DNA from: JAZDEY01 sp043808325 [NCBI: Candidatus Eiseniibacteriota bacterium] | GTDB lineage: Bacteria; Arandabacterota; Arandabacteria; Arandabacterales | Assembly: GCA_043808325.1 (NCBI GenBank) | Contig: JAZDEY010000013.1 | Span: forward strand, 1-37,687 | Reading direction: 5' to 3' | Length of the DNA stretch: 37,687 nt | Shown: one piece after another, positions 3,068 to 35,577 of the stretch | Numbering within the stretch: position 1 is the stretch's first letter | Layout of the letters: each line of letters begins with the position of its first letter | The notes under the pieces: generated by a model | Database searches by the model: none | The model's input: only the letters and a program-made list of their open reading frames with translations | What the model was told of the DNA's origin: nothing | Position numbers and translations under genes: made by a program

Positions 3068-3100
3068 AAAGCTCCCTCTCAGATGAGAGGGAGCTTTCCT
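3068..3100. terminator. bidirectional intrinsic terminator
   Basis: A perfect 13-bp inverted repeat (3068-3080 with 3085-3097, loop AGAT) starting AAAGCTCCC and ending GGGAGCTTT, followed by CCTTT on the plus strand and a short T run (TTTCTTACG) on the minus strand. It separates the phosphatase/micropeptide unit from the convergent lipoprotein gene that ends at 3141. Confidence 0.85.
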
Positions 3101-3794: not shown

Positions 3795-4772
3795 TTATCC
3801 TGGAATCCGTGTGATCTTGTGCACCTCTATGTGAGACCCGCTCCTTATCGCTATGAAGTAGACGCCCGGCGCTAGCACACCGCCATCTGAGTTCCGGGCG
3901 TCCCAGACGATCTCAGATCGATCCGGCGAAGATGCCGTGATTGTCCGGACCACCCTTCCCCCGACATCATAAACCGTCACCTCACCGAGCGGGCTGGTGC
4001 CATCAAGACTGAAGGCTCTTAGCACAAGATGGTCTCTGAACGGATTGGGGGATGCGAAGATCCGTATCCTGCCCTCCCATTCGTGAAGCAACGAAAGGAA
4101 GAACTCTCGCAGGCCGGATACACTGTCGGCTGAGCGCAGGTCATGGTTCTCGGCGCCCGATCCACATCTGGCGAGATCGCCCCCAAAGAGGATTCTAAAA
4201 TCCTCCGCAAAGATCTCGTGAGGCCTCGCGGCGTGCGCTTGAGATCCCGGAGCTGCACCGAGCGCAATCCCGCGTAAGGAGGCGTACTGTCTCCAGAGAT
4301 CATCTCTTGAATCCGGCATCAGGGCATGCTGGACCACGTGTCCTATCTCGTGGGTCACGGCATAATGGACGTGCTCCTGCGGGTAATCGATACTTCCCGG
4401 GGATAGAAAGACCACCATACCCTCGGCCGATGACTCGGGCAAATCACGACGTGGTGTGGCAAGAATCACGATATCGGCCTCAATTCCATCAAGGGGGTAG
4501 GTTATTCTGGCGAGGGCATCCACAACTTCATCTAGCGGCATGGGTCGATAAAGATCCTCGCGGCCGAGCAGGGTGCGGCGCGTTGTTCCGGGGAACTCGA
4601 TGTAGGCCAAGCCTCGATCCGTACCGCAGAACTGCGCAAGGTCTTCGTGGGAGTACACGGTCATCTTTCCGACCGACTCTTCCCCGCCGGCTCGGCCGCA
4701 TAAGACCACAATGCAAGCTGCTGCCACCCATATCCAAGTCGACTGGCCACGGCTGTGAAGTCGATCGTTCAC
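3795..4772 (-). CDS. secreted HExxH zinc metalloprotease with C-terminal FlgD-like domain
   Basis: A 325-residue exported protein. The GTG start at 4772 follows GAGGT by eight bases; a signal peptide covers about residues 1-30 (core WIWVAAACIVVLCG). The zinc motif THEIGHVVQH places His141, Glu142 and His145, and a candidate third ligand, Glu186 (HEIFAEDF), lies about 40 residues on. This spacing recalls the anthrax-lethal-factor-like (ATLF) / Pro-Pro endopeptidase group, but that assignment is tentative. Residues about 240-325 form a FlgD-like / type-A-sorting-like domain (SPNPF, VYDVGGRVV, APGVYFIA), so the enzyme is probably surface-bound or released. Its leader carries a sigma70 promoter, a GEMM-like aptamer and a terminator, which suggests control by a cyclic dinucleotide. 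Substrate unknown; a surface adhesin would be a reasonable guess. Confidence 0.8.
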   Translation of the reverse strand: MNDRLHSRGQSTWIWVAAACIVVLCGRAGGEESVGKMTVYSHEDLAQFCGTDRGLAYIEFPGTTRRTLLGREDLYRPMPLDEVVDALARITYPLDGIEADIVILATPRRDLPESSAEGMVVFLSPGSIDYPQEHVHYAVTHEIGHVVQHALMPDSRDDLWRQYASLRGIALGAAPGSQAHAARPHEIFAEDFRILFGGDLARCGSGAENHDLRSADSVSGLREFFLSLLHEWEGRIRIFASPNPFRDHLVLRAFSLDGTSPLGEVTVYDVGGRVVRTITASSPDRSEIVWDARNSDGGVLAPGVYFIAIRSGSHIEVHKITRIPG

Positions 4773-4784
4773 CCAGGGCTACCT

Positions 4785-4826
4785 CAAAAAAGAAAGAGCT
4801 GCCGAAAATGTGCGATTTTCGGCAGC
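4785..4826 (-). terminator. intrinsic terminator of the metalloprotease leader (riboswitch expression platform)
   Basis: Minus strand: a perfect 12-bp stem GCTGCCGAAAAT (4826-4815) with its complement (4809-4798), loop of five bases, then a U-rich tail (TCTTTCTTTTTT). It lies just upstream of the GAGGT ribosome site. The 5' arm shares GCTGCC with the 3' end of the aptamer-like element, so aptamer folding and terminator formation are mutually exclusive. Confidence 0.85.
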
Positions 4827-4913
4827 CCGGCTATCCTTGCAGATACCAGAGCTTTGCGGGGCTTCACCCCACCTTTTCGCTATCGCCCCAAGGTCTCCGT
4901 TTGTGCCCCACGC
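4821..4913 (-). ncRNA. GEMM-like (c-di-GMP-I-like) riboswitch aptamer
   Basis: Minus strand, transcribed from the promoter at 4920-4948. The 3' half carries the hallmark blocks of the GEMM family in the right order: a GC hairpin (GGGG/CCCC, 4870-4858), then CGCAAAGC (4858-4851), a short hairpin starting CTGGTATC, and GGATAGCCGGGCTGCC (4836-4821). The block GCGATAGCGAAAAGG (4886-4872) occupies the place of the usual 5' core (GCACAGGGCAAACC) but diverges from it, and I could not find a fully convincing P1 helix. It may therefore be a variant class (c-di-GMP-I variant, cGAMP-type or another ligand). The overlap with the terminator supports a transcriptional switch on the downstream metalloprotease gene. 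Confidence 0.6.
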
Positions 4914-4919
4914 ACTACT

Positions 4920-4948
4920 AGTCTATCACAGGAAGGCACCCGAGTCAA
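4920..4948 (-). promoter_or_regulatory. sigma70 promoter of the riboswitch-metalloprotease transcript
   Basis: Minus strand: TTGACT (4948-4943), 17-base spacer, TAGACT (4925-4920). The predicted start near 4913 places the aptamer-like element at the very 5' end of the mRNA. Confidence 0.7.
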
Positions 4949-10511: not shown

Positions 10512-12293
10512 TTACTGCTCGGTTTCCTCGGGTTCCTTCGCGGTCCAAATCTCGTCCTCAAGGACGGTCCTGGTGACGCGCATCACTTCCTCAAGTGAGG
10601 TGACCCCGTTTTCCACCTTGTCGATTCCATCCTCGAACATCGCTCGGTAGGCGTTGCGGCGCGCGGCATGCTTTACATCTTGCTCGCTCGCGCGCTTAAC
10701 TATCAGGCGTCTTATCTCGTCGTCCACTACAACCATCTCGTAAAGGCCGATCCTTCCCTTGTAGCCCGACTGAGAGCACTTTTCGCAACCGACGGGCTTC
10801 AGGGCACGCCGCAGCTTACGCACCTCGCCGGTCTCAGGGACCAAGAGCTCGACCGGCTGCGCGGCCTCAGCACACTGGTCACAGAGCCTTCTTACCAGTC
10901 TCTGAGCGACCATCGCGGATACGGACGATGCAACCAGGAAGGGCTCGATTCCCATGTCCACCAGTCTGGTGATGCTGGATACCGCGTCGTTGGTGTGAAC
11001 GGTGGTGAAAACCAGATGCCCCGTGAGCGCAGCCTGGATCGCGATCTCGGCGGTCTCGACATCTCTGGTCTCGCCCACCATTATAATGTCCGGGTCCTGC
11101 CTGAGGATCGCCCTAAGGCCGCTGGCGAAGGTAAAGCCGGCAACTGGATTGGTATGGCCCTGGTTTATGCCGGAGATCTGGCTTTCTACAGGGTCCTCCA
11201 GCGTCACGATATTCTTGTCGGTTGTGTTGACGCTGTTCAAGGCAGCGTAGAGTGTCGTGGTCTTGCCGCTTCCCGTAGGTCCAGTGACGAGGACGATGCC
11301 GTGGCTCAGACCAAGCACCTGCCGGAATCTGCCCAGGATCTCTTCGTTCATGCCGAGATCATCAAGGGTGATCGTCATCCCCGATCTCTCAAGAATCCTC
11401 ATCACGACCTTCTCGCCGTGAATCGTGGGAAAAGTGGAGACCCGTAAGTCGATCTTCCTGCCCTGAACACTGACCGAGAAACGGCCGTCTTGCGGGATAC
11501 GCCGCTCTGCGATGTTGATCTTCGCCAGGATCTTGAGCCTGGAGATCACCGCGGCCTTGAGCATTCTCGGTATCACGATTTCGGGGTGAAGCACGCCGTC
11601 CACCCGGTATCTTATCTCCAGTGCCCGGTCGCTAGGTTCGGCATGGATGTCGCTTGCGCCTTTGGATATCGCCCGGTCGATCATCAGGTTGACCAGCTTG
11701 ACCACAGGAGCTTCCTGGCTGAGCTTCTGTGATTCCACCACATCTTGATCTTCCACCACCTCTTCGACCGCCTCGGCCTCATCGGTTGTGAGATCCTGAA
11801 TCGCCTCCATCACGTTGTCGGTTCTGCCGTAGTAAGTGTCGATCGCGGTCAGTATCTCCTGAGCCTTGGCGACCAGAGGCTCCACCTCACAACCGGTAAC
11901 GAATCGGATCTCCTTTATGGCCTCGGAGTCGGTGGGATCGGCCATGGCAATCGTGAGATTCTTCTCGATCTTGAAAAGGGGGATCGCCCTAAGGTCCCGC
12001 GCCATCGATTCGGGCATGAGGTACACCACCGAGGGGTCCATCACGGTCGAATCCAGGGTGACGAATGGAATCTTCAGCTGTTTGGCCAGAGCCTTGAAGA
12101 TCTGCTCTTCGCTGGCAAATCCCTGGTCGACCGCGAGCTCGCCCAGCCGCCTCTTGGTCACATACTGCTTCTGCAGCAGCTGCTCGAGGTCCTTCTCATT
12201 GATTATGCCGGCCTCAACCAGAATGGTCCCGAGCTTGTTTCTCGAGAGCCCGGTCTTTCTCATCTTCCTTGATCCCTGATCTACCATTCCCAT
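10512..12293 (-). CDS. pilB: PilB/GspE-type assembly ATPase with N-terminal MshEN domains
   Basis: 593-residue secretion/type IV pilus extension ATPase. Residues 20-43 (KLGTILVEAGIINEKDLEQLL...) and 49-72 (RLGELAVDQGFASEEQIFKAL...) form the tandem MshEN motif, known in MshE and several PilB proteins to bind c-di-GMP. The linker is acidic (about 165-190). The ATPase core has Walker A GPTGSGKTTTLY, the Asp box (NIVTLEDPVE), Walker B IIMVGETRDVETAEIA and the His box TGHLVFTTVHTNDA. Near the C-terminus is the zinc tetracysteine CDQC...CEKC. It begins three bases after the MCP stop. The ATG at 12293 has no clear ribosome site; a later ATG at 12260 is possible. Other pilus genes are not in the window. 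It could equally be a GspE. Confidence 0.88.
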   Translation of the reverse strand: MGMVDQGSRKMRKTGLSRNKLGTILVEAGIINEKDLEQLLQKQYVTKRRLGELAVDQGFASEEQIFKALAKQLKIPFVTLDSTVMDPSVVYLMPESMARDLRAIPLFKIEKNLTIAMADPTDSEAIKEIRFVTGCEVEPLVAKAQEILTAIDTYYGRTDNVMEAIQDLTTDEAEAVEEVVEDQDVVESQKLSQEAPVVKLVNLMIDRAISKGASDIHAEPSDRALEIRYRVDGVLHPEIVIPRMLKAAVISRLKILAKINIAERRIPQDGRFSVSVQGRKIDLRVSTFPTIHGEKVVMRILERSGMTITLDDLGMNEEILGRFRQVLGLSHGIVLVTGPTGSGKTTTLYAALNSVNTTDKNIVTLEDPVESQISGINQGHTNPVAGFTFASGLRAILRQDPDIIMVGETRDVETAEIAIQAALTGHLVFTTVHTNDAVSSITRLVDMGIEPFLVASSVSAMVAQRLVRRLCDQCAEAAQPVELLVPETGEVRKLRRALKPVGCEKCSQSGYKGRIGLYEMVVVDDEIRRLIVKRASEQDVKHAARRNAYRAMFEDGIDKVENGVTSLEEVMRVTRTVLEDEIWTAKEPEETEQ

Positions 12294-23902: not shown

Positions 23903-23936
23903 GGAAAGCCCGCCCCAGTGGCGGGCTTTCCTTTTC
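23903..23936 (+). terminator. intrinsic terminator after DUF11 paralogue 2
   Basis: Perfect 12-bp stem GGAAAGCCCGCC with complement, loop CCAGT, followed by TTTTC. Starts 14 bases after the stop. Confidence 0.9.
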
Positions 23937-24091: not shown

Positions 24092-26146
24092 TCAGCGAAC
24101 CACAACCGCCTTCAGCGGCCGAGACCCGCCGGTAGCACCACGCAGGCGCACAAAGTACACACCCGCGGCCAAATCGCCTCCACTCTCATCAAGTCCGTCC
24201 CACAAAGCCGAATGCCGGCCCGGTTCTATACACCCGACAGGAACTGCTCTCACGCACCTCCCCCTCACATCAAAGACTTCCATGCTCAGGAGGCCCCTCC
24301 AATCAGTCTGGAAAACAACCCTGGTCGACGTATTGAAAGGGTTCGGCTCCAGAGAGAGAATCTGAAACATTGCCGCTCCGGGAACATCTCCAGGGTCGGG
24401 TACCTTGACGCCGCTTCCAAGTGGGCGTCTCACGCCCAGGCTGTTATTCTCGCTCGCGGCGATCGCCACGAAGCCCTGGTTCGGCTCAGGCACGTTGCAC
24501 TGGCCGTCTGTGTTGTAACCCCAGGCTACGATAGTCCCATTCGCCTTAAGGCCCAAACTATGACCGACGCCCGCCGCCACCGCCACGAAGTCCGCGTTCG
24601 GCGTGGGAACCGTGCACTGACCATTATAGTTATCTCCCCAAGCCACGATCGTCCCGTTGGACTTGAGACCTAGGCTGAAACCCCAGCCCCCAGCCATCCC
24701 CACGAAGTCCGCGTTCGGCGCAGGCACGTTGCACTGGCCATAGTCGTTGTACCCCCAACCCACGACCGTCCCGTCAGACTTGAGGCCCAGGCTGTGATAC
24801 CAGCCCCCGGAAACCGCCACGAAGCCCGCGTTCGGCGCCGGCACGTTGCACTGGCCATAGTAGTTCAACCCCCAGGCCACGACCGTCCCGTCGGACTTGA
24901 GGCCCAGGCTGTGAGACCCACCCCCGGAAACCGCCACGAAGTCCGCGTTCGGCGCCGGCACAGTGCACCGACCATAGGTGTTGTACCCCCAGGCCACGAC
25001 TGTCCCATCGGACTTGAGACCCAGGCTGTGATACCAGCCCGCGGCAACCGCCACGAAGCCCGCGTTCGGCGCAGGCACGTTGCACTGGCCATAGCCGTTG
25101 TACCCCCAGGCCACGATCGTCCCGTCGGACCTAAGACCCAGGCTGTGCTGCTTGCCCGCGGCAACCGCCACCAAGCCCTCGTTCGGCGCCGGCACGTTGC
25201 ACTGGCCATAGGTGTTGTACCCCCAGGCCACGACTGTCCCGTCGGACTTAAGACCCAGGCTGTGATACCAGCCCCCAACAACCCCCACGAAGCCAGTATT
25301 CGGCGCGGGCACAGCGCACTGACCATAGGCATTGTATCCCCAGGCCACAGCCGTCCCATCGGACTTGACGCCTAGGCTATGGTACTGGCCGGTGGCAACT
25401 GCCACGAAACCCGCGTTCGGCGCGGGCACGGTGCACTGGCCATAATAGTTGTACCCCCAGGCTACGACCGTCCCGTTGGACTTGAGACCCACGCTGTGAC
25501 CCTCGCCCCCGGAAACCGCCCCAAACCCCGAGTTCGGCGCAGGAACGGTGCACTGGCCATAGCTGTTCCGCCCCCAGGCCACAATCGAACCGTCGGACTT
25601 AAGACCTAGGCCGTGATACCAACCCGCGGCAACTGCCACGAAGCCCGCGTTCGGCGTGGGAACCGTGCACTGGCCATAGTCGTTGTACCCCCAGGCTACA
25701 ATCGTCCCGTTGGACTTGAGACCCAAGCTGTAATACCCGCCTGCACCCACCGCCACGAACCCTGCATTCGGCGCGGGCACATCGCACTGGCCATAGTCGT
25801 TCCGCCCCCAGGCCACGATCGTCCCATCAGACTTAAGACCCAGATTGTGAAACCCACCCGCAGCCACCGCCACGAACCCCGCGTTCGGCGCAGGCACATC
25901 GCACTGGCCCTTGGAGTTGTACCCCCAGGCCACGACCGTCCCGTCAGGCCTAAGACCCACACTGTGATACCAGCCTGCGGCTAGCTCCACGAGACTATCA
26001 AGCGCCAACGGCTCCATAATGACCTGTAAGCCCCATCCCACGATTGACCCAGGGGATTGCCCTTGGGCTGCACCGGTACCGACGAGAAACACACACAGGC
26101 ACACCAGGCTCAACAATGATTTACTCAGCGATCCACTCAGCTTCAT
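24092..26146 (-). CDS. secreted RCC1-repeat (14-blade) protein with FlgD-like C-terminus
   Basis: 684 residues; AGGGGGTGAG lies shortly before the ATG. Signal peptide residues 1-28 (LVCLCVFLVGTGAAQG). Residues about 34-585 are 14 RCC1-type units of 39 residues (consensus GQCNVPAPNAGFVAVAAGWY, then HSLGLKSDGTVVAWGYN), enough for two seven-blade propellers. A short linker leads to a FlgD-like C-terminal domain (about 600-684; LEPNPFNTSTRVVF, MEVFDVRGRCV, AAGVYFVRL). RCC1 propellers act as protein-interaction platforms; no enzyme motif is seen. A sigma54-type promoter lies about 100 bases upstream, so it may belong to the regulon of the activator at 8509-9588. Confidence 0.88.
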   Translation of the reverse strand: MKLSGSLSKSLLSLVCLCVFLVGTGAAQGQSPGSIVGWGLQVIMEPLALDSLVELAAGWYHSVGLRPDGTVVAWGYNSKGQCDVPAPNAGFVAVAAGGFHNLGLKSDGTIVAWGRNDYGQCDVPAPNAGFVAVGAGGYYSLGLKSNGTIVAWGYNDYGQCTVPTPNAGFVAVAAGWYHGLGLKSDGSIVAWGRNSYGQCTVPAPNSGFGAVSGGEGHSVGLKSNGTVVAWGYNYYGQCTVPAPNAGFVAVATGQYHSLGVKSDGTAVAWGYNAYGQCAVPAPNTGFVGVVGGWYHSLGLKSDGTVVAWGYNTYGQCNVPAPNEGLVAVAAGKQHSLGLRSDGTIVAWGYNGYGQCNVPAPNAGFVAVAAGWYHSLGLKSDGTVVAWGYNTYGRCTVPAPNADFVAVSGGGSHSLGLKSDGTVVAWGLNYYGQCNVPAPNAGFVAVSGGWYHSLGLKSDGTVVGWGYNDYGQCNVPAPNADFVGMAGGWGFSLGLKSNGTIVAWGDNYNGQCTVPTPNADFVAVAAGVGHSLGLKANGTIVAWGYNTDGQCNVPEPNQGFVAIAASENNSLGVRRPLGSGVKVPDPGDVPGAAMFQILSLEPNPFNTSTRVVFQTDWRGLLSMEVFDVRGRCVRAVPVGCIEPGRHSALWDGLDESGGDLAAGVYFVRLRGATGGSRPLKAVVVR
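24407..26047 (-). repeat. 117-bp tandem repeats coding the RCC1 units
   Basis: About 14 in-frame copies of a 117-bp unit. Many neighbouring copies are highly similar at nucleotide level, pointing to recent duplication or gene conversion. Confidence 0.85.
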
Positions 26147-33290: not shown

Positions 33291-33354
33291 CACAGATGTA
33301 CAGATGTCCTCGCCGACAACACCTGGCAAGTACTGGTCAAAGGGGTGTATCAGA

Positions 33355-35577
33355 ATGCGAGATTCCAAGCCGCGAGGACATGCAACCACTGCACGGATCG
33401 CCACACTCAGTACGCTAACCATCATTCTCCTTGTCGTAAGTCTGGCTTTCGCTGCCGACCTAGGTGCAGGTGCCCTCGGTTCAGGCCAAGAGGCCGCGAT
33501 GCTTGAGGCGGTGCCGCAGATCGCACCGGCCCGGCCTTCGCAGGCCGATGACCAGCCGCCCGGGCTGGGCTTTGTGCCACCGCCGGGCGATTTCTCGCAC
33601 CTGAAGGCGCCACTGGCGAGCGGCTTCGCCATGCTGGGCTCAGCGCCGCCATCAAGGTTTGACTGGCGCACCACGGGCAAGATTACCCCAGTTAAGAACC
33701 AGGGCTCCTGCGGGGCATGCTACGCCTTCGCCGCTGTAGCCAACTTTGAGTCAAGGGTCCTGATCGATGCCGGCCACGCGTTGGACTTCTCAGAGAACAA
33801 CGTCAAGGAATGCGAATGGTTCGGATCAAGCTGCGGTGGTGGCAATGACTGGAGAGTCGCCCACTATCTGTCGACCAAGGGTACGGTTCTCGAATCCTGC
33901 GATCCATACGTAGCAAGCAATGCTGCCTGTACCGGCAGCTGCACGTATCAGAAGACGCTCCTGGACTGGCGCGTGATCTCCGGATCCGCCGTACCATCGG
34001 TGGACGTGCTCAAGAGCTACATCCAGACCTACGGACCGATCTATGCAGCCATGTACGCCGGAAATCGGGACGCGTGGTACACCGAGTTCCAGAGGTACAA
34101 CGGTTCATATGCCCTCTACTACAGCGGCGCCGGCGTTCAAAACCACGCGGTGCTGATCGTCGGGTGGGACGACAATCTGGCGCATGCCGGAGGCACGGGC
34201 GCGTGGATTGTCAAGAACAGCTGGGGGACAGCATGGGGCGGCACGTGCGGCTATGGATCGGAGCGGGGCTATTTCACGATTGCCTACGGCGCAGCCCAGA
34301 TAGGTTCCTATTCCTCCTTTCTCTATCGATGGCAGGACTCCGATCCGACTCGCCAACTACTGTACTACGATGAGGCCGGTTACACGGGCAGTCTCGGCTA
34401 CGGCGGCAAGACTGCGTGGGGATTGTGCAAGTTCGTTGCCTCACAGGACTGCTCCGTCGAGTGGATCGAGTTCTGGACGCTTGACGCAACAACCGACGTC
34501 GACGTTTACATTTATGATACCTTCAGCGGTAGCGCACCTTCCGCATTGCTTGCCAGCAGCCTGGACAACGCCTTCGATCTCGCCGGCTATCACTCGGTCG
34601 GCCTCTCATCCCCGCTGCGGGTGAGCAGAGGGAACGACATATACGTTGTGGTAAAGATCACCGATGCGACCAGCATTTATCCTGTGGGCTTCGATGCTGT
34701 CGGCCCGAAGAGCCCCGGATACTCCTATATAAGCTCGACCGGTGTGTCATTCATGCAGTTCAACAATGGGGATCTGGGCATTCGGATGCGCGTGGCTGCG
34801 GCCAGCTCGAGCGCCCCTATCGCAAAGACTCCGACCATAACGAATGTCAGCGACGTGCCGTCCGACAGAGGCGGATACGTCGAAGTCACCTGGACCAGGA
34901 GTAGCAATGACGACCAAGCCGCTTCACCACGGGTAAAGAAGTACGAGATCCGCAGAAAGCGCAAGGACGTACTGCCGAGCCTGCAGACCCTGGGCAGCGG
35001 GACCGGGCCGCAGGTTGGCGGATCCTATGAGTATGGCCCCGACGGCGCTGCCTGGGAAATCGTAGGGACGGTCGCGGCGGCGGGCCAGGCCTCCTACAGG
35101 TTCATCGCGCCTACAAATGGTGACGCAAGCGGCGACGACACATGTTGGACCCATTTCTACGTCACTGCGACCACGGGCCTGATGGGAGCACACTTCGATT
35201 CCCCCGTGGTGCGCGGTTTCTCGGTGGACAATCAGGGCGGACTCAATTTGCCGCAGGACGATCTCGATCCCGACAAGGCAGGGCCGGACACTACAATCTC
35301 CAGGGTCGTCTTAAACATGCCTGAGCCCAACCCGAGCTCAGAGGGCTTCCTCCTAAGATTCGAGCTACCCATGCCGGACAACGTCTATCTTGCCGTGTAC
35401 GATGTTGCCGGGAGGCGCATCGCCGTGTTGGCCGACGGCTGGGTCGGCGTTGGCCGTCATGAGGAAAGGTGGACTCCGGGACAGGACGGCACACCCAGGC
35501 AAGTGCCAGGGCTATATTTCGCGAGGCTCGTGACCGCATCGGAGGTCCGCACGCTGAAACTGGTACTTACCAGGTAG
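33355..35577 (+). CDS. secreted papain-family (C1A) cysteine protease with FlgD-like C-terminus
   Basis: 740 residues from ATG 33355 (AAAGGGG nine bases upstream; an earlier ATG at 33304 would start almost at the predicted transcript start and lacks a site). Signal peptide about 12-37 (LTIILLVVSLAFA). The catalytic set is complete: Gln116 and Cys122 in NQGSCGACYAFA, His264 in VQNHAVLIVGWDD, Asn288 in VKNSWGTAWG. Residues about 340-490 resemble the lectin-like beta domain that follows the peptidase in many prokaryotic papain homologues; an Fn3-like stretch (about 495-620) and a FlgD-like domain (about 655-740; EPNPSSEGFLLRF, VYDVAGRRIAV, PGLYFARL) end the protein. A surface or secreted protease; no I29 inhibitor domain is seen. 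A near-consensus FliA promoter suggests co-expression with motility functions. Confidence 0.92.
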   Translation: MRDSKPRGHATTARIATLSTLTIILLVVSLAFAADLGAGALGSGQEAAMLEAVPQIAPARPSQADDQPPGLGFVPPPGDFSHLKAPLASGFAMLGSAPPSRFDWRTTGKITPVKNQGSCGACYAFAAVANFESRVLIDAGHALDFSENNVKECEWFGSSCGGGNDWRVAHYLSTKGTVLESCDPYVASNAACTGSCTYQKTLLDWRVISGSAVPSVDVLKSYIQTYGPIYAAMYAGNRDAWYTEFQRYNGSYALYYSGAGVQNHAVLIVGWDDNLAHAGGTGAWIVKNSWGTAWGGTCGYGSERGYFTIAYGAAQIGSYSSFLYRWQDSDPTRQLLYYDEAGYTGSLGYGGKTAWGLCKFVASQDCSVEWIEFWTLDATTDVDVYIYDTFSGSAPSALLASSLDNAFDLAGYHSVGLSSPLRVSRGNDIYVVVKITDATSIYPVGFDAVGPKSPGYSYISSTGVSFMQFNNGDLGIRMRVAAASSSAPIAKTPTITNVSDVPSDRGGYVEVTWTRSSNDDQAASPRVKKYEIRRKRKDVLPSLQTLGSGTGPQVGGSYEYGPDGAAWEIVGTVAAAGQASYRFIAPTNGDASGDDTCWTHFYVTATTGLMGAHFDSPVVRGFSVDNQGGLNLPQDDLDPDKAGPDTTISRVVLNMPEPNPSSEGFLLRFELPMPDNVYLAVYDVAGRRIAVLADGWVGVGRHEERWTPGQDGTPRQVPGLYFARLVTASEVRTLKLVLTR

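Follow-up and report, generated by a model that had tools for sequence, protein, structure and literature searches.

The described riboswitches closest to the leader reported here are those of the GEMM-I kind (Rfam RF01051, c-di-GMP-I). According to PMC3764141, ligand recognition in these RNAs needs G20, A47, A48 and C92, and a C44-G83 pair holds P2 and P3 parallel; PMC4744006 describes this pair as universally conserved. Class I switches are reported in PMC6366702 to be ON in some cases and OFF in others. In C. difficile a class I c-di-GMP riboswitch controls the secreted metalloprotease PPEP-1 (Zmp1), which is described in PMC11477304 as being secreted when c-di-GMP falls. In the pilM ON switch presented in PMC9262584, the terminator captures the ligand-pairing C of the aptamer.

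We analysed a stretch of 37,687 nucleotides (positions 1 to 37,687 of contig JAZDEY010000013.1, called the window below), in which a putative secreted metalloprotease is preceded by a leader of this type. The leader is probably an unusual member, with a short P2 arm, of the known c-di-GMP class I kind of switch.

Layout of the locus and its gene

The minus strand has a 250-base intergenic region between a 54-aa ORF (5187-5023) and the gene for a 325-aa protein (4772-3795). A promoter-like site, a GEMM-I-like aptamer, an intrinsic terminator, a ribosome site and the gene for the HEIGH protein, which has a GTG start at 4772, follow one another in that order (Table 1). The sequence-only reading of this DNA had proposed a promoter, an element with GEMM blocks, a terminator, a ribosome site and an ORF with a signal-peptide-like N terminus and an HExxH motif (here HEIGH), and all are present where it placed them. 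The 54-aa ORF starts within the 3' end of a response-regulator gene and lies just upstream of the protease promoter. Promoter-like sites numbered 3 in the 2.1 kb scanned, against 0.7 +/- 1.0 expected, and given this expectation the match to a promoter is weak evidence by itself.

Table 1. Features of the leader and of the gene that follows it
Feature	Position	Strand	Basis and details
Sigma70-like promoter, TTGACT-17-TAGACT	4948-4920	minus	consensus match only, 9/12; TG directly precedes the -10 hexamer
5' leader before the aptamer	4887..4913	minus	27 nt; start site predicted from the -10 box
GEMM-I-like aptamer	about 4886-4812	minus	Rfam search, block profile, own covariance models
P1	GCGAU (4886-4882) with AUCGC (4816-4812); CG (4879-4878) with CG (4821-4820)	minus	
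GEMM blocks, in this order	AAAAGGU (4877), CGCAAAGC (4858), UAGCCGGGCUGCCGAA (4833)	minus	
J1-2, AAAAGG	4872..4877	minus	4873 is the G20 equivalent; covariance alignment, Vc2 numbering after PMC3764141
P2, GUGGGG-UGAAG-CCCCGC	4856..4872	minus	17 nt; covariance alignment and length comparison
J2-3, AAA	4853..4855	minus	A47-A49 equivalents; covariance alignment
P3 hairpin with AG bulge on the 3' side	4824..4853	minus	G83 equivalent is 4831
CC	4821..4822	minus	4822 corresponds to C92, which pairs with the ligand; covariance alignment, PMC3764141
Intrinsic terminator, 14-pair stem and TTTCTTTTTT T run	4828-4796	minus	terminator scan
Ribosome-binding site, GAGG	4785-4782	minus	read directly; 9 nt 5' of the GTG start
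325-aa protein	3795..4772	minus	N terminus like a signal peptide (by eye); HEIGH; FlgD-Ig/type IX sorting domain at the C-terminal end

The N terminus of the 325-aa protein has a hydrophobic stretch, and 44 residues after HEIGH stands HEIFAEDF, by eye a plausible third zinc ligand. The type IX sorting domain was recognized by TIGR04183 at 26.6 bits (cut-off 23); Pfam PF18962 gave 20.8 bits, below its cut-off of 27. Residues 25-237 had no Pfam match up to an E of 10, with filters that drop most matches above 0.1, and the protein had no sequence match in the PDB. With neither a peptidase family nor a structure matched, the label "protease" is based on the motif. A single-sequence structure model had a pLDDT of 39.3 and was too poor to use. 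No relatives of the protein were found in viral contigs or plasmids. Among 299 genomes from a different phylum there was one match, of about 50 aa (E 5.1e-4, 21 bits); it lies over an ORF of the opposite strand and was judged spurious. The leader DNA had a single 35-base match in plasmids (E 4), which we rejected, and these searches yielded no homologous leader.

Similar C termini occur elsewhere in the window. A 684-aa protein with RCC1-like repeats (24092-26146, minus strand) has the same FlgD-Ig C-terminal domain, and further window proteins have a similar C terminus by eye. Such C termini would point to a lineage of the Bacteroidota-Fibrobacterota kind. The product of 33304-35577 (plus strand) is probably a second secreted protease: it belongs to the papain family, has a lectin-like domain and has a C terminus that by eye is sorting-like.

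Likeness to GEMM-I RNAs

In the covariance alignment, 16 of the 17 consensus pairs form in the leader and the seventeenth is a gap, the alignment being one that is fitted to structure. All nine consensus pairs of P3 are among those formed, with the G83 equivalent bulged at 4831. The equivalents of the ligand contacts G20, A47, A48 and C92 are present at 4873, 4855, 4854 and 4822. Eleven columns were invariant in 10 GEMM-I RNAs, and the leader retains nine of them. An alignment of the leader to GEMM-I RNAs by sequence only misplaced the middle blocks and kept 2/6 invariant columns, and the covariance alignment was preferred. The flanks that would form P1 pair no better than shuffled ones (103 of 300 mononucleotide flank shuffles were equally good), so P1 is without statistical support, and the outer helix GCGAU/AUCGC was rejected as proof of a GEMM element. 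The test was repeated on 21 GEMM-I loci and singled out L003 alone as clearly better than chance (1/300); the next locus had 38/300.

At gathering scores, an Rfam search of the whole window found tRNA only and did not call RF01051. At E <= 10 the window had seven Rfam rows, tRNA and six weak ones that include RF01051; the E of 9.7 for RF01051 applies to 4227 families and corresponds to about 0.002 for that family alone. The sequence-only reading had named a covariance search with the Rfam c-di-GMP-I models as a check on its proposal. Under relaxed limits, RF01051 is the best family for the 321-base region, with a full-length match (1-87) in which zero non-standard pairs are marked, but at 20.2 bits it stays below the gathering score of 35. 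The Rfam score alone does not prove that the element is GEMM-I.

Our GEMM-I reference RNAs were taken from genomes of the phylum to which Marinobacterium belongs, which we take to be the Pseudomonadota. RF01051 was over its cut-off in 12/200 and in 33/398 of these genomes (overlapping samples), so that an origin in a Gram-negative lineage is in itself nothing new. From 19 GEMM-I matches, of which 18 were over the cut-off and from which L010 and L017 had been omitted as near copies, we made a profile of three blocks: J1-2, the CGCAAAGC region, and the 3' strand of P3 as far as CCGAA. Gaps between the blocks are free and the P2 arm is therefore not counted; the gap range was deliberately made wide enough for a short P2. 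L015 and L049, which entered some of the comparisons, are RF01051 matches just below the cut-off (32.2 and 32.0 bits).

The leader scored 35.4 bits against this profile. The 19 members, scored with themselves included, had 33.5-49.6 bits except for L015 (24.2) and L020 (17.8, with a gap beyond the limit), and fetched strands that contain no GEMM-I match scored 20.5 at most. When the whole window was shuffled 3000 times with its dinucleotides preserved, no shuffle reached 35.40, nor did any of an earlier set of 1000; the best of the 3000 had 35.03, a value so high that the block score alone corresponds to about one in a few thousand windows. The P3 pairs that were tested all form in the leader (7/7 core and 3/3 outer), and all 10 formed in 4 of the 3000 best shuffled hits. 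Our first covariance model had the leader as its sole match in the window, with 19.5 bits and an E of 1.1e-5 by a rough calibration. The second gave the leader 21.6 bits and the GEMM-I RNAs, which are that model's own members, 48.9-83.3. In our own covariance search the leader scores clearly under every GEMM-I RNA.

A chance control was provided by L023, which was picked by pattern from viral contigs and lies inside an ORF that by eye looks like a transposase. It has 20.1 bits to RF01051, level with the leader, which makes the Rfam bit score alone a poor argument. It also keeps all 11 invariant columns, many of them selected by the pattern, and these columns alone therefore do not discriminate. 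With our two covariance models L023 has 16.3 and 16.0 bits, the latter a mere 5.6 bits under the leader. It scores 17.6 on the blocks and forms 9 of the 17 consensus pairs, with 7 gaps and 1 mismatch. Blocks and pairing taken together set the leader apart from this chance match. Pattern scans of viral contigs gave 0 and 1 match, the one being L023, and a scan of the genome collection gave one, L001, a GEMM-I RNA with a 21-nt P2; since the long-gap form of the pattern matches 0/52 GEMM-I loci, the scan is uninformative on rarity. The element in the leader is very probably an aptamer derived from GEMM-I.

Short P2 arm, terminator and proposed switch

The P2 arm of the leader is shorter than in nearly all of the GEMM-I RNAs compared. 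Counted from the equivalent of G21 to that of C46, it has 17 nt in the leader and 26-28 nt in 46 of 50 GEMM-I matches (48 over the cut-off), 2 of these 46 being read by eye. The outliers are L046 with 14 nt, L003 with 21 nt and L044 with 22 nt, and one match was not assigned; twelve loci of the sample had been chosen because they were short or scored low. The leader's P2 is a continuous hairpin that has neither the A23-A25/G42-C44 internal loop nor a GNRA tetraloop. A23 and C44, both invariant, are absent from it in the covariance alignment. G83 is present, and the base before GCAAA is a C, which the covariance alignment places in the P2 stem, with the C44 column empty; a C44-G83 pair could form in the leader at the cost of one P2 pair. 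P3 is short and by eye is without the usual receptor, which is also missing from some of the fetched GEMM-I RNAs. As both halves of the P2-P3 docking interface are absent together, random damage would be a poorer explanation than a minimal form that is coherent in itself. The sequence-only reading had taken the 5' half of the element to be divergent; the likeness to GEMM stands, and the divergence is narrower and lies visibly in the short P2, J1-2 (AAAAGG) being normal.

One GEMM-I RNA of the sampled phylum (L046/L056) is over the Rfam cut-off at 49.4 bits with a P2 of only 14 nt, from which it follows that so short a P2 does occur in a family member. Some 210 bases further 3' of it lies a 927-aa ORF, by eye similar to a TonB-dependent receptor. 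A different variation of P2 was seen in L021, L022, L042, L043 and L053, where the base of the arm is CC...GG and not GC...GC (C at G21 and G at C46), so that the junction pair beside the ligand site is changed. Our literature search, largely at the level of titles and abstracts, found neither a GEMM-I RNA with a shortened P2 nor a GEMM-controlled type IX protease, which is no proof of their absence.

The 5' arm of the terminator, GGGCUGCCGAAAAU (4828-4815), holds the 3' strand of P3, the C92 equivalent at 4822 and the start of the 3' strand of P1. That the terminator's 5' arm is also the 3' strand of the aptamer had been claimed from the sequence, and sequence, pairing and architecture all bear this out. 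A loose terminator scan was uninformative (2 found, 2.0 +/- 1.5 expected). A strict rule, which asked for a 10-pair stem with no more than one G-T and for 6 of 8 T, found 4 sites in the window and not one in 60 shuffles. The three other strong terminator-like sites are at 3071-3094 (plus), 23904-23930 (plus) and 35638-35612 (minus). The T run adjoins the ribosome site and the scan found no promoter-like site between terminator and protease gene, so the terminator, if it works, controls the gene.

Since aptamer and terminator are mutually exclusive, the switch is predicted to be ON with ligand. In the absence of ligand, the RNA past the aptamer would fold into the terminator, capturing the 3' strand of P3 and the C at 4822, and transcription would halt in the T run just upstream of the ribosome site. 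With ligand present, P1, P2 and P3 would close around it and hold the terminator's 5' arm in the aptamer, and read-through would allow transcription of the gene for the HEIGH metalloprotease. The G at the equivalent of position 20 predicts c-di-GMP as the ligand rather than cGAMP. Switches for cGAMP have an A at this position. A table in PMC11352751 lists a G20A GEMM-I sensor for cAMP-GMP. We consider it likely that the leader is a short-P2 GEMM-I riboswitch of the ON type, acting at the level of transcription on the gene for a secreted HEIGH metalloprotease.

Thermodynamic prediction has GUGGGGC (4911-4905) and ACCUU (4894-4890) of the 5' leader able to pair with the 3' strand of P2 and with AAGGU. 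The 5' leader strand, which repeats GUGGGG, is a possible competitor of the aptamer in this model, and it may tune the switch. When the 5' leader is left off, the minimum-energy fold is that of P2 and P3 (gap 0); when it is included, P2 and P3 lie 5.1 kcal/mol above the minimum. The same gap, calculated with 30 nt upstream for 18 GEMM-I loci (18 of 21 were in register; L006, L013 and L017 were excluded), was up to 6.3, and in 3 of the 18 it was as large as in the leader (5.2, 5.2 and 6.3). The GEMM-like fold with P1 has -21.0 kcal/mol and the leader hairpin with the terminator -52.2, values in which tertiary contacts and ligand are not counted. The long leader hairpin of the minimum-energy fold (GUGGGGC with GCCCCGC) was rejected as the P2 of a GEMM element, as it leaves no room for P1 and would put the equivalents of A18 and G20 upstream of the predicted start site.

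The window also encodes a PilB/GspE-type ATPase (10512-12293, minus strand) with an MshEN domain of 72.7 bits at residues 74-159. By eye, its residues 20-72 hold two c-di-GMP-binding motifs of 24 residues, each close to the consensus, separated by a 5-residue linker. Motifs of this MshEN-associated kind bind c-di-GMP according to PMC5013675. An MshEN ATPase with such motifs suggests that c-di-GMP signalling is likely to operate in the source organism.

An unrelated attenuator or leader, whether for another metabolite or a protein or as a simple terminator, in which the blocks stand by chance, seems to us very unlikely. Such an origin would agree with the sub-threshold Rfam score, with its E of 9.7 for the whole window and all families, and with the bits that the chance match L023 reaches in coding sequence. 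It does not account for a block score and a full P3 pairing so rare among the shuffles, for the low block score of L023 and its lack of 8 of the 17 pairs, or for the position of the element in a leader, on the correct strand, with a terminator exactly over its 3' strand. A GEMM-I-derived aptamer of altered specificity, recognizing cGAMP, another dinucleotide or something else, is the least probable of the explanations considered. P2 is changed near the binding pocket (C22 to U), and cGAMP switches share the GEMM-I fold as described in PMC9262584. The G20, A47, A48 and C92 contacts, however, are those that PMC3764141 gives for c-di-GMP switches, and the MshEN domain encoded in the window is of a c-di-GMP-receptor kind.

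Decay of a GEMM-I switch is improbable in our judgement. Loss of the P2 loop and of docking would then have abolished useful affinity and left a mostly constitutive terminator with low protease expression. The A23 and C44 missing from the covariance alignment, the lost GNRA loop and the very stable competing leader hairpin are what decay could leave behind, but P3 with its nine pairs, J2-3, C92 and G20 are intact, the terminator is well formed, and P2 shows an orderly, uninterrupted helix with no sign of scrambling. In addition, the GEMM-I RNA with a 14-nt P2 that is over the cut-off stands 5' of a 927-aa ORF. We favor the short-P2 ON switch. A bolder form of it, in which a minimal GEMM-I aptamer that has lost internal loop, interhelical pair, tetraloop and receptor, and with them the entire P2-P3 docking interface, still switches, perhaps with assistance from the leader strand, and turns on a type IX-exported protease, is put forward tentatively and is itself doubtful. 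If the switch works, it shows how little of the GEMM-I aptamer suffices for sensing a dinucleotide, and that shortened members can escape covariance libraries tuned to a complete P2. Production of a protease exported by the type IX route would then also be tied to c-di-GMP, in the opposite sense to C. difficile.

Comparison with known systems

The leader shares with the RF01051/Vc2 GEMM-I RNAs a J1-2 of the form AAnGG with G20, GCAAAGC, the AG bulge in the 3' strand of P3, the GCUGCCGAA end and the position in a 5' leader. It differs from them in its P2 of 17 nt, against the usual 26-28, with neither internal loop nor GNRA, in a short P3 that by eye is without the usual receptor, and in a score below the gathering cut-off. 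The c-di-GMP-I-GGC family (RF03167) belongs to the same clan, and a Marinobacterium litorale RNA (L001/L003) shares CGAAAAGG and CCGAA with the leader. That RNA has 43.2 bits to RF03167 (gathering 59) and 42.2 bits to RF01051, over the cut-off; the leader's own best member of the clan is RF01051. L046 resembles the leader in its strongly shortened P2 (14 nt and 17 nt) and differs in keeping GCAA and AC beside the P2 base and, by eye, a receptor-like P3, and in the TonB-receptor-like ORF downstream.

In its proposed mechanism the leader is like the cGAMP (GEMM-Ib) ON switch of pilM in Geobacter metallireducens. In both, the C that pairs with the ligand is drawn into the terminator, which cannot form together with the aptamer; the leader differs in having G20, another target gene and a short P2. 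With the PPEP-1 switch of C. difficile it shares a class I aptamer upstream of a secreted metalloprotease, which here is putative. The sequence-only reading had drawn this parallel for both target and regulatory logic. It holds for the kind of target and fails for the logic, as the sign predicted here, ON with ligand, is the opposite of that described in PMC11477304. The protein of this locus also carries a type IX sorting domain, and the two systems are alike in the kind of target that they would control.
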